Origin: Candidatus Zixiibacteriota bacterium
GTDB taxonomy: Bacteria; SM23-81
Assembly: GCA_030628225.1 (NCBI GenBank)
Contig: DAOVRJ010000086.1
Coordinates: forward strand, 1 to 9,210
DNA length: 9,210 bases
Reading direction: 5' to 3'
The notes beneath the pieces were generated by a model, which saw only the letters and a program-made list of their open reading frames with translations, was not told the DNA's origin and searched no databases. How positions within the stretch are numbered: position 1 is the stretch's first letter; each line of letters opens with the position of its first letter. Of this stretch, positions 1,635-8,434 are shown one piece after another. Position numbers and translations under genes: made by a program.

Positions 1635-2273
1635 TTATACTTCTATGATCGCCCCCGCTCCGCCGGCGATGTATTTCTCAGGATACAAAGATTTGATCTC
1701 CGGGATATGCTGCGTGCAGTGCGTCGGGCAGACCATCTGCACATCACTCAGCAATTCATAGTCATCGAACCCGTGGAAACCACCGACAATGGCACAAACC
1801 CTCCCAAATTGCGCGGCAGCGTCAAGAACGACTTTCACTGTAGGGTGTGAACATCCCACAACTACAACCACTCCTTTTTCCGTCTTAACTGCCAGGGACT
1901 GTTCTATGCTATCAAGCTCGCCGGTGGAAAAGATGTTCTCATGCATTCTCATCGGCTCATGCACACAGATGAACTCTTTCGCATGACGAGTCTTCTTTAA
2001 TGAGAAAGGTGCATATATCTTCACATCATCATTCTGCTTCAGAAAAGCCGCCAGACCGCCTGTATGATCATAGTGGTCATGAGAGATGAACACTTCCTCG
2101 ATTGATCGCGGATCGATGTGCAGCTTCATCATGTTCTCAAGAAGTATCGAGCCATTGGCACCGGTATCAAAAAGAATTGTTCTGCCGTATACTTCCACAA
2201 GACAGGAAAAACCCCAGTCGGGTATAAGATCTGCTCGCATCACGGTATTGTCATAGACGATCGTGATCTTCAT
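1635..2273 (-). CDS. Metallo-beta-lactamase-fold hydrolase (COG1237-like)
   Basis: This 212-residue cytosolic protein has the full metal-binding set of an MBL-fold hydrolase: the H-x-H-x-D-H motif in SHDHYDHTGG (H65, H67, D69, H70), GCSHPT (H143), GGFHGF (H167) and CPTHC (H185). FDTGANG near residue 35 is the usual early strand-loop. The overall pattern, including the GCSH and FHGF motifs, matches the COG1237 group. Members of that group are annotated as beta-ribofuranosylaminobenzene 5'-phosphate synthase-like enzymes, but the substrate of most is unknown. It is shorter than many group members, which I recall as roughly 250-280 aa. It starts 9 nt after the stop of the Cys-rich gene, with TGAGGA immediately before the ATG, so translation is probably coupled. 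It is the last gene of the four-gene cluster. Family assignment is firm and substrate is not. Confidence 0.88.
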   Translation of the reverse strand: MKITIVYDNTVMRADLIPDWGFSCLVEVYGRTILFDTGANGSILLENMMKLHIDPRSIEEVFISHDHYDHTGGLAAFLKQNDDVKIYAPFSLKKTRHAKEFICVHEPMRMHENIFSTGELDSIEQSLAVKTEKGVVVVVGCSHPTVKVVLDAAAQFGRVCAIVGGFHGFDDYELLSDVQMVCPTHCTQHIPEIKSLYPEKYIAGGAGAIIEV

Positions 2274-4950: not shown

Positions 4951-5535
4951 TCACTGGCCTTTTTCCAGCAGATTCGTTAAAAGCAGGCGCATCTTGCTGT
5001 AATTCCTTACCATCTCTTCTTTTATGGAACTGTTGTACAGAACGGCGGCGGGGTGCTGCACGGGAAGCAACTTCCTGTCACCAGCCGGCAATACTTCCCC
5101 ATATACCTGGTGAAGCTCTGCTCTGGGCGGCAACGCAATCGCGTATTTCCCCAAGAGGTATCTGGTTGCATAATAGCCAAGTGAAACCAGTATTCCGGGA
5201 TTTATTAGCTCTATCTCCCGATTCAGATACTGGCTGCAGATCTCTATCTCATCGGCCTTTGGCTTCCTGTATCCAGGAAGCATGCACTTTATGAGATTCG
5301 TCATATAAAGATCTGGCAAATCAATGTCAATCGTTCTCAACAGATCGCGGAGCACTTCTCCCGATGGCCCGATGAACATCTGCCCTTCTCTGTCCTCGTT
5401 CTCCCCGGGCGCCTGGGCAATGAGCATCAACCTGGCCTGCAGATTCCCTTCACCGCAAAGAGCGTGTATCCTGGTCTCGGCCAGCCTGCATTTGTGGCAC
5501 ATCCTGATCTGGCCATTCAGAACCTCGATGCTCAT
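4951..5535 (-). CDS. udg: Family 4 (Fe-S) uracil-DNA glycosylase
   Basis: This 194-residue DNA repair enzyme excises uracil arising from cytosine deamination. Four cysteines (C13, C16, C84, C100) are spaced as in family 4 enzymes, where they hold a [4Fe-4S] cluster. The active-site segment reads QAPGENED (41-48), followed by GQMFIGPSGEVL, equivalent to the family's GEAPGxxED...GxPFVGxAG. MTNLIKCMLPGYRKP (78-92) and the HPAAVLY motif (161-167) are also typical. Length is normal for the family. The ATG at 5535 is supported by AAGGGA about 8 nt upstream and by the position of the first Cys pair. The gene is first in the putative cluster and is preceded by about 180 nt of leader that contains an epimerase-gene remnant, whose frame ends in a TGA overlapping this ATG. 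Family 4 enzymes are common in thermophiles and anaerobes. Confidence 0.93.
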   Translation of the reverse strand: MSIEVLNGQIRMCHKCRLAETRIHALCGEGNLQARLMLIAQAPGENEDREGQMFIGPSGEVLRDLLRTIDIDLPDLYMTNLIKCMLPGYRKPKADEIEICSQYLNREIELINPGILVSLGYYATRYLLGKYAIALPPRAELHQVYGEVLPAGDRKLLPVQHPAAVLYNSSIKEEMVRNYSKMRLLLTNLLEKGQ

Positions 5536-5713
5536 GCGATATCCCTTTGCGCAGATACCACCTGATCTTCTCTCTACGCACCATCGTCAGCAAGGCAGGT
5601 GAAGTGGCCGCCGAGCTTGTCAGCGGGCAAATGCCCGGCCCAGAAAGGGACCACCTCGTCCAGCAATTGCTGGCGGTGGAAATCCAGAGGCTTATGGCTC
5701 TGGCGAGCTCCAT
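5532..5713 (-). pseudogene. N-terminal remnant of an N-acylglucosamine 2-epimerase (AGE) gene
   Basis: Between the promoter and the glycosylase gene, the minus strand reads LLDEVVPFW, then GHLPADKLGG, then HFTCLADDG (about 5666-5580). This matches the conserved N-terminus of AGE-family proteins (LLxDVLPFW...D..GGyFTCLdrdG), which interconvert N-acetylglucosamine and N-acetylmannosamine. The frame is broken. An in-frame TAG lies at 5576-5574, right after the DGA. The likely original start (ATG 5713, MELARAISL) is in another frame, so a frameshift is needed near 5690. The reading after the TAG (REDQVVSAQ) still loosely fits the family's D-x-D-K-x-V-W-x-Q stretch. It then ends in a TGA that overlaps the glycosylase start. 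About 58 codons remain of a gene that normally has roughly 400. It is clearly non-functional as an epimerase. Identity rests on motif recognition only. Confidence 0.62.
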
Positions 5714-5722
5714 TTCGTCTGT

Positions 5723-5751
5723 ATGATACGGCCTTTGGAATCAGAATTCAA
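5723..5751 (-). promoter_or_regulatory. Strong sigma70-like promoter ahead of the four-gene cluster
   Basis: On the minus strand TTGAAT (5751-5746) and TATCAT (5728-5723) stand exactly 17 nt apart. Transcription should start near 5716, only a few bases before the old epimerase ATG at 5713 and about 180 nt before the glycosylase ATG. The simplest reading is that this was the epimerase promoter and now drives the glycosylase, NagB/PIG-L, Cys-rich and MBL genes. Confidence 0.6.
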
Positions 5752-5845
5752 GAGAATAAATGCCCGGGGAGCATAAAAAAACCGGCGAGTATTTCATCGC
5801 TGGCGGCTTTATATTCTCGGGCTGATGTGGCCCATCTCTCAGATA

Positions 5846-5873
5846 TCTCTGGTGATGTGTCTGCTGCCAGAGA
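5846..5873. repeat. Perfect 7-bp inverted repeat
   Basis: TCTCTGG (5846-5852) and CCAGAGA (5867-5873) are perfect reverse complements around a 14-nt loop, which can add two G-T wobble pairs. The left arm overlaps the palindrome AGATATCT at 5841-5848. No T tract follows on either strand, so it is not a standard intrinsic terminator. Confidence 0.5.
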
Positions 5874-5900
5874 ATTGGGTTTGATGAAGCAAAAGGAAAC

Positions 5901-5964
5901 GCGAGTGCACCGTCGGGCGCCAGAGCACACATATACTCCCAGACACGCCGGACGGCGCACTCGC
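5901..5964. repeat. Long imperfect inverted repeat downstream of the lipoprotein gene
   Basis: Arms 5901-5914 and 5951-5964 pair over 14 positions with one A-C mismatch. After one G-G mismatch the stem continues for four pairs (5916-5919 with 5946-5949), leaving a 26-nt loop. This makes 17 pairs over 19 positions, GC-rich. On the minus strand it lies 45 nt after the lipoprotein stop and is followed only by a loose T-rich run (GTTTCCTTTTG). It could act as a weak terminator, an mRNA-stabilising hairpin or a copy of a dispersed REP-like repeat. Confidence 0.6.
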
Positions 5965-6008
5965 ACTCTTCCGCCAGGAGGGCGGTTATGTTATACAACT
6001 ACCAGGAG

Positions 6009-6482
6009 CTACTTTTTCCCCTCGTGCCGGCCGAGGATGATATGACATCCGTTATCTTCGAAGACCGTCACGTTTGCCACAAATCTGCCGCCTTTTTTCT
6101 GCCACGCGCATCCCCAAACCCCATCTTCTTCATGGGCATCCAGGAGCTTTGTCCAACCCTTTTTGGGCATCTTGGATTTATAATAGGAGATCACCTGGGC
6201 AGGTTTGGCATCCGTGATATAGTGCCGCACCTCGCTTCTTTCAAAAGCACCAACCCCTGTTATCACCTTCGCCTCACCCTCGCTCTTCGCGCCAGAGAAA
6301 ATAGGCATATCACCCCAATCTCCCGAGCTCGTCTGGCGAACCTCCACCTGTGCAGATCCGGTCTCAGATGATTCGGTAGAAGCGGCCTGCTGCTGCTTCT
6401 CACCCCCACCACCGCAGGCGATCAAACTCACACAGCCCAGCAGCAGAAGAGATGCCAATAAAAAATGGATCGGCTTCTTCAT
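6009..6482 (-). CDS. Small secreted lipoprotein of unknown function (157 aa)
   Basis: The product starts MKKPIHFLLASLLLLGC and carries the lipobox LIAC with the lipidated Cys at residue 23, then a Gly-rich and Gln/Ser/Thr-rich tether (about 24-55). It should be exported by Sec, lipidated and anchored, probably to the outer membrane because Gly rather than Asp follows the Cys. The C-terminal part (about 60-152) is a compact domain with MPIFSGAK, a YYKSKMPKKGW segment and a strand-rich end (VWGCAWQKKGGRFVANVTVF). The YYxxxMxxxGW pattern recurs in small bacterial lipoproteins of unknown function. I cannot name a family. The start at 6482 is chosen because GGAGG lies 8 nt upstream and the signal peptide begins here. 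An in-frame ATG at 6653 would add 57 residues ahead of the signal peptide and is rejected. A long leader precedes the gene and inverted repeats follow it. Confidence 0.88.
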   Translation of the reverse strand: MKKPIHFLLASLLLLGCVSLIACGGGGEKQQQAASTESSETGSAQVEVRQTSSGDWGDMPIFSGAKSEGEAKVITGVGAFERSEVRHYITDAKPAQVISYYKSKMPKKGWTKLLDAHEEDGVWGCAWQKKGGRFVANVTVFEDNGCHIILGRHEGKK

Positions 6483-6586
6483 CTCTTGATCCTCCCTTTC
6501 CTTACCGTCCTGAATCGAAAAGGCCCTTTTAAAACGAGCCTGATGACCTCCTCCCCAACACCAAAGCGGCACCAGCGCTGGGGGTG

Positions 6587-6977: not shown

Positions 6978-7124
6978 TCACACTTTTGACGGATCGCCTC
7001 GTCTCACCCTCTCCCTCACCTCCTGCATCTTCACCATCCCACATCTCTTACACACCCATTTGCGGCGCTTGTGAAAGCTGCGTTTCTGCTCCGTCATCTT
7101 GGTCTTACAGCGAGGACAGATCAT
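6978..7124 (-). CDS. 48-aa zinc-ribbon mini-protein
   Basis: The short frame begins ATG 7124 and reads MICPRCKTKM, with C3-x2-C6, then an Arg/Lys-rich middle (KRSFHKRRKW), then C25-x2-C28 in VCKRCG, a basic helix-like tail, and TGA at 6978. The two CxxC knuckles 18 residues apart make a textbook zinc ribbon, and the high positive charge suggests nucleic-acid or ribosome contact, which is inference. An excellent ribosome binding site (GGGAGGGG, a few bases before the ATG) supports translation. A terminator-like hairpin lies downstream. The gene stands alone: the lipoprotein gene is 495 nt further on, and on its upstream side come a heptamer repeat and the insertion sequence. Small size makes it easy to miss in automatic annotation. 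The basic N-terminal knuckle recalls zinc knuckles of transposases, but there is no following catalytic domain. Confidence 0.72.
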   Translation of the reverse strand: MICPRCKTKMTEQKRSFHKRRKWVCKRCGMVKMQEVRERVRRGDPSKV

Positions 7125-7150
7125 GTCCCCTCCCTACAACCCACCCCGGT

Positions 7151-7213
7151 GGCAGTTGGCAGTCGGCAGTAAGCAGGAAGCAGTAAATGAAATGCAGAAT
7201 GAAAAATGAAAAG
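7151..7213. repeat. Degenerate heptanucleotide tandem repeat
   Basis: Nine successive 7-mers can be read: GGCAGTT, GGCAGTC, GGCAGTA, AGCAGGA, AGCAGTA, AATGAAA, TGCAGAA, TGAAAAA, TGAAAAG. The first five are clearly GGCAGTN-like and the later ones decay. The tract ends two bases from the left terminal repeat of the insertion sequence. Heptamer tracts of this general kind are known as dispersed repeats in several bacterial groups. Confidence 0.6.
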
Positions 7214-7215
7214 TG

Positions 7216-7318: not shown

Positions 7319-8434
7319 GTGAAAAAAAGGTGTCCTCGATGTTCAAGTTTCCTGGTTAAGAAGATTGGCTTTAAGAGAAGTTCCATTACTACCAAGAGAG
7401 GGGTTATTGCCAAAAAGCTCCAAAGATATCTTTGTAACGTGTGCCAAAAGAGCTTTACTCTGGAGGTAGCAAGTAAACGAAAGAGGCATTCTAAAGCACT
7501 CATCACATCGGCTATTAAAAGATATGTGGAGGATAACACCACCCTAAGGCCGGTCAGTAATAGCATCGGCATCTCTCCAAAAGGGCTTTTAAACTGGTTG
7601 ATGGAATATGGCAGTAATGCGAAAAGCCCGTTAGAGGTTGCTCGGGAGCTGAAACCGAAATGGTCTGGCCTGCTCGGTGTTGATGGTAAGGCATTTAAAA
7701 TCCATGGACAAGAGTTTACTATCCTGGTGGCTCAGGATGTACAGACCTTTGATCCGGTGTTCTTCTCTGTGGTAGAGAGAGAAAATGTAGAGAACGCAGA
7801 ACGGTTTTTCCTGATCATCCGTGATGTTTTACGATATCCTATTAAGGGCATTGTCAGTGACCTCGGTAGAGGTAAGGCGTTCGTTGCCCTCATCAAGGAA
7901 ATCTTTACAGGTATTCCCCATCAGGCATGCGTCGTACACTTTTTCAGGTATGTCAACGCAACCATTCCAAAGAGCAAAAAGAGTGTCTACTACCAGGAGA
8001 ACTGTATTCTCAGACAGACTGTCAAAGGGATCCTCTTCGCTGAAAATTTCAATGATGCCGAAGAAACCTTCCAAAGACTCCTATTAGCTAAAAGTCTTAT
8101 TAAAACATCGTATCACAAAAAAATCATTCGCTCCCTAACAAGACACTTTGATCTTTTAACCGCCCATTTCCATCACTCTGTGTTGGTACGAGACAACAAC
8201 GTGACAGAGAACCTGATCAAGCAACTTAACAGGAAGTTCAAACAATCAGGAGGCTTTAAGAATATCGACAACGCCTATAACTTCCTAAAGCTCTGGTTCA
8301 TTTACTACAGACTGAAACCCTTTTGCAACAGCTCTAGGCCATATCGGAACGGTAAAACCCCTATAGAACTCGCTAATGCAAAAAGCAATAAGACTGATTG
8401 GCTAACGTTTTCTCAACGAAATAGACACACTTAA
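7319..8434 (+). CDS. DDE transposase, Mutator/IS256-like
   Basis: This 371-residue protein catalyses cut-and-paste movement of the surrounding element. The N-terminus has a zinc knuckle (C5, C8, C39, C42), then a helix-turn-helix region (about 58-98) for end recognition. The catalytic core shows the first Asp in LGVDGK (D122), the second in IVSDLG (D181), the C-x2-H motif QACVVH (C204, H207) that marks the Mutator superfamily, and the Glu in NNVTENLIKQ (E297), followed by basic KQLNRKFKQSGG. The start is GTG at 7319, since GGGAGGAG lies about 7 nt upstream and the zinc knuckle begins at once. The stop codon TAA (8432-8434) lies inside the right terminal repeat and directly abuts the stop of the convergent truncated ATPase gene. 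Length and order are those of an intact transposase. Confidence 0.9.
   Translation: MKKRCPRCSSFLVKKIGFKRSSITTKRGVIAKKLQRYLCNVCQKSFTLEVASKRKRHSKALITSAIKRYVEDNTTLRPVSNSIGISPKGLLNWLMEYGSNAKSPLEVARELKPKWSGLLGVDGKAFKIHGQEFTILVAQDVQTFDPVFFSVVERENVENAERFFLIIRDVLRYPIKGIVSDLGRGKAFVALIKEIFTGIPHQACVVHFFRYVNATIPKSKKSVYYQENCILRQTVKGILFAENFNDAEETFQRLLLAKSLIKTSYHKKIIRSLTRHFDLLTAHFHHSVLVRDNNVTENLIKQLNRKFKQSGGFKNIDNAYNFLKLWFIYYRLKPFCNSSRPYRNGKTPIELANAKSNKTDWLTFSQRNRHT

Follow-up and report, generated by a model that had tools for sequence, protein, structure and literature searches.

A truncated epimerase gene and its promoter sequence ahead of a uracil-DNA glycosylase gene in a draft bacterial genome

Gene content of the locus and of its counterpart in a relative

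The stretch of DNA analysed here (the window) is an entire contig (C139, 9210 bp); the draft genome to which it belongs has 2.34 Mb in 306 contigs and is 92% complete. Three genomes served for comparison: G001, a member of the same family, and G002 and G003, which belong to the same phylum. On the minus strand, the window carries the 5′ end of a gene for an N-acylglucosamine 2-epimerase (AGE; PF07221), reaching over approximately 46 codons from position 5713 to about 5577. Between this stub and a gene for a cation:proton antiporter, four genes are located, coding for a uracil-DNA glycosylase (UDG), a NagB-like/PIG-L-like protein, a small cysteine-rich protein, and a metallo-beta-lactamase (MBL)-fold protein, none of which is present at this place in G001 (Table 1).

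Table 1. Features of the window that bear on the epimerase locus
Feature	Position	Strand	Basis
CPA2-type cation:proton antiporter, cut by the contig end	1..1428	-	PF00999; orthologue of G001:C82:110863-112290
MBL-fold protein	1635..2273	-	PF00753
Small Cys-rich (zinc-ribbon-like) ORF, 76 aa	2283..2513	-	ORF list; no Pfam match
NagB-like/PIG-L-like protein, 782 aa	2557..4905	-	Best model PRK02122 "glucosamine-6-phosphate deaminase-like", below cut-off
Family-4 UDG	4951..5535	-	TIGR00758, 148.6 bits (cut-off 125.3)
AGE gene remnant	5577..5713	-	Start codon, one-base frameshift, ~37 more codons in the AGE frame, then TAG
Putative sigma-70-like promoter of the former AGE gene, TTGAAT-N17-TATCAT	5723..5751	-	Consensus scan and alignment with G001
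Inverted repeat with T run, upstream of the promoter	5768..5806	-	Alignment with G001
36-aa zinc-ribbon ORF, the other common flank	7014..7124	-	84% DNA identity over 109 bp to L040 11041-11149

G001 contains a single intact AGE gene (on contig C82). Upstream of it are a small lipoprotein-like ORF and a gene for a peptidase; downstream come the antiporter gene and an exonuclease III-like gene. The AGE stop codon and the antiporter start are separated by 11 bp, with neither a glycosylase nor a NagB gene in between. The antiporter of the window (1428-1) shares 84% protein identity with its G001 orthologue, which is the gene directly after AGE there. In G001, the antiporter (L040:6474-8300) is fused to a C-terminal PTS EIIA domain; in its window counterpart, the contig end cuts off the corresponding part.

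On the other side, the zinc-ribbon ORF is common to both genomes, while the lipoprotein gene between this ORF and AGE is not. The lipoprotein gene of the window (6009-6560) has paralogues at three more places in the genome (34–39% identity) and no relative in the three nearest genomes. In G001, three tandem serpin-like genes, each with a lipoprotein-like signal at its start, were identified by eye (L040:908-4771). An imperfect inverted repeat (5870-5990; GAGTGCGCCGTCCGGCG / CGCCCGACGGTGCACTC) separates the lipoprotein gene of the window from the old AGE promoter; it occurs as a single copy in the genome and does not align with G001. Further upstream, a short intergenic repeat (7130-7215; GGCAGTTGGCAGTCGGCAGTAAGCAGGAAGCAGT...), of which about 27 partial copies with 76–100% identity are spread over the contigs of the genome, adjoins a gene for a Mutator-like DDE transposase (7319-8434; PF00872, 40 bits), which is unique in the genome at the DNA level.

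The epimerase remnant and its promoter sequence

That a fossil AGE N-terminus lies in a minus-strand frame ahead of the glycosylase gene was the core of the original prediction, and it is borne out by comparison with PDB sequences and with G001. The stub frame reads ...PLDFHRQQLLDEVVPFWAGHLPADKLGGHFTCLADDGA*; translation of the minus strand from 5747 to 5577 gives ILIPKAVSYRRNGARQSHKPLDFHRQQLLDEVVPFWAGHLPADKLGGHFTCLADDGA, with TAG next, and the part from LDF to DDG corresponds to 5687-5580, immediately followed by the TAG. Upon a phmmer search of the 57-aa stub frame against all PDB sequences, the top four matches (2gz6, E=0.0012; 1fp3; 8bry; 6f04) were all AGE-family proteins and all N-terminal. 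With the intact AGE of G001, the stub shares 67.6% identity over 37 aa (E=2e-15), and the alignment score of 138 compares with at most 45 in 300 base-shuffled controls. As is seen in the AGE family (PF07221, NF052547; 2gz6, 1fp3), the stub has the N-terminal motif LLDxVxPFW...GGxFTCLxxxG. A Pfam scan of the fragment gave no match because PF07221 begins only at residue 36 of the intact G001 relative. In one tblastn alignment, the similarity to AGE seemed to continue past the start codon into the upstream sequence (to residue 11 of a longer 455-aa ORF); this extension was discounted since promoter DNA common to both genomes had been translated as protein. Among the NCBIfam models, the intact G001 protein itself matches N-acyl-D-glucosamine 2-epimerase best (410 bits, short of the 600-bit cut-off), and its best PDB matches are GlcNAc 2-epimerases.

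The intact gene also allows the damage to be read. Window positions 5591-5804 align with the G001 promoter, start codon and first AGE codons at 71% DNA identity over 218 bp, and the start codons correspond (window ATG 5713, L040 ATG 9531), as do the promoters. A one-base gap before LDF in this alignment confirms the predicted frameshift, and the predicted in-frame TAG is present likewise; in addition, some 360 codons are gone. The uncorrected frame from the old ATG yields an unrelated 87-aa ORF (5713-5450), which overlaps the glycosylase start. Downstream of the stub, from about 5577 to 5536, neither AGE nor glycosylase sequence can be recognised. AGE sequence past codon ~46 was found neither in the window nor elsewhere in the 92%-complete genome, and a search for a 3′ remnant beside the antiporter gene was negative. 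What is present is N-terminal homology; the complete (alpha/alpha)6 barrel with its catalytic residues is absent. In contrast to working genes of the family, about 46 of 406 codons are left, frameshifted and stopped, so that no enzyme can be made from this locus. An intact orthologue occupies the same place in G001, with promoter and antiporter in common, and the stretch is thus a well-supported truncated bacterial AGE pseudogene with a surviving promoter sequence, both together spanning approximately 5751-5577.

The promoter predicted ahead of the fossil is likewise supported, as sequence, by G001, where TTGAAA-N17-TATTAT stands at the same position. In both genomes, the promoter ends about 9–10 bases before the start codon. 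It is this conservation that gives the call its weight and not the consensus scan alone, which returned one match versus 0.5 expected in shuffles. Upstream of the promoter, the G001 counterpart of the inverted repeat is a terminator-like site with a perfect 8-bp stem and T7. In the window, the repeat is weakened by a stem mismatch and the terminator scan makes no call there; probably, it is the terminator of an upstream gene.

As regards promoter capture, a conserved promoter sequence is present upstream of the new first gene, coding for UDG, and judged from its position, the surviving promoter would now read into this gene. A message from about 5713 would carry approximately 175 nt, mostly dead epimerase, before reaching the UDG start at 5535. 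It is conceivable that the stub has been retained as a leader, either as a leader peptide or as a structured 5′ untranslated region, which controls the glycosylase gene, considering that the 87-aa ORF opened by the old start codon shares 86 nt with the beginning of the UDG gene and could couple or hinder its translation. This is very unlikely, given that the stretch folds no better than shuffled sequence (z -0.41), that no relative among the genomes compared has this arrangement and could show its conservation, and that AGE ancestry already accounts for the sequence. The chance that the out-of-frame ORF has been co-opted to regulate translation of the acquired glycosylase operon is fainter still.

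Origin of the four-gene block

Homology of the stub to AGE, common genes on both flanks, the missing AGE body, and the lack of a NagB/PIG-L gene in the nearest genomes are observed; the order of insertion and loss as well as the mechanism of recombination would have to be reconstructed from them. We consider it most plausible, with a probability of roughly 0.8, that the locus is the decayed 5′ end of an AGE gene whose body was replaced by the four-gene block, at least one gene of which is probably foreign. The ancestor shared with G001 would have had promoter, AGE and antiporter in this order. In the lineage of the window, the block of about 4.1 kb would have come to separate AGE codon ~46 from the start of the antiporter gene; loss of the AGE body would have accompanied this event or followed it, and the stub would have gained at least one frameshift and a stop. 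Differences by codon position number 9/6/14 of 36 in the stub and 74/36/241 of 476 in the antiporter gene; the pattern of the stub, lying between constraint and drift, suggests from these small numbers that AGE was under selection for much of the divergence and was lost later.

The case for acquisition of part of the block rests on two of its genes. G001, G002 and G003 lack the NagB/PIG-L-like gene, and its relatives with 51–65% identity were found dispersed among Latescibacterota, KSB1, Planctomycetota, Ignavibacteriales and Spirochaetes. In the case of the UDG, the gene in the window is a divergent second copy, with 35–36% identity to both the copy on contig C174 and that of G001, whereas the C174 copy, the orthologous one, shares 69% identity with the G001 gene. 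Thus, at least part of the block was probably acquired, and the NagB/PIG-L-like gene is the one for which we consider this probable. The MBL-fold protein is not diagnostic of origin since relatives of 42–46% identity occur in all four genomes (G000-G003). In 28 loci, several of them short, no other block gene was found adjacent to NagB/PIG-L relatives, and the block may therefore have been built stepwise. The hallmarks of a defined mobile element are lacking: neither terminal repeats nor a target duplication (only chance-like repeat matches) were found at the block ends, no recombinase gene is among the block ORFs, and neither RNA families nor tRNA genes that could have served as insertion targets were found. 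The GC content of the block (0.48–0.51) is only slightly lower than that of the antiporter gene (0.56), which, like the missing hallmarks, speaks against the preferred history.

The original prediction held that a deletion had joined an existing glycosylase cluster to the epimerase promoter, and suggested looking in close relatives for an intact epimerase between this promoter and the glycosylase. The intact gene was indeed found in G001 behind the same promoter, with the antiporter and not the glycosylase coming next. Under deletion alone, the ancestral order would have been AGE, UDG, NagB, small ORF, MBL, antiporter; the AGE body would have been deleted in the window and the four other genes lost separately in G001. 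While this would account for the block starting right behind the stub, and two genomes give no strict polarity of change, it is unlikely, in that AGE and antiporter are 11 bp apart in G001, the three nearest genomes are altogether without NagB/PIG-L, and the nearest relatives of this gene that were found belong to other phyla. Insertion or replacement is therefore preferred over deletion; with a single close relative compared, the direction (gain of the block here versus its loss in G001) rests on parsimony. An assembly artefact, by which a foreign contig was joined to AGE and antiporter sequence, would have to be reckoned with in so fragmented a draft, the window being a whole contig; it is highly improbable, since two joins, one per side, would be required that replace exactly one gene, and the stub is already frameshifted at a place away from the contig ends.

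Relation to known systems

That the locus might once have been an amino-sugar catabolic operon, with the NagB-like gene as a member, is not supported. In G001, the one relative compared in this respect, no amino-sugar gene lies near the intact AGE gene within the 18 kb read. The NagB-like gene belongs to the block and is itself absent from G001-G003, and its matches to NagB models are well under their cut-offs. Classical NagB has Glu after FN. In the NagB-like domain of the window (GGIGPDGHIAFNVRG), Val follows FN; hence, the protein might not be a glucosamine-6-phosphate deaminase.

The downstream glycosylase passes the cut-off of the family-4 model; it is a second, divergent copy and has no known link to AGE. 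A search of the literature combining AGE with pseudogene and horizontal transfer returned nothing. Generally, truncated pseudogenes with replacement of neighbours, and possibly with promoter capture, are part of operon evolution, and the locus follows this process in that a new gene set stands behind an existing promoter, with the stub of the old first gene in between. Nothing about it is distinctive except which genes are involved. It is a case of ordinary gene loss and replacement, a kind of event already well known, and bears on no open question. Its value lies in showing, cleanly and on a small scale, how a gene can be lost to replacement while its promoter stays behind, a history that can be read since the intact gene survives in a relative; it also cautions that the promoter and initial codons preceding a gene may be those of a dead predecessor.
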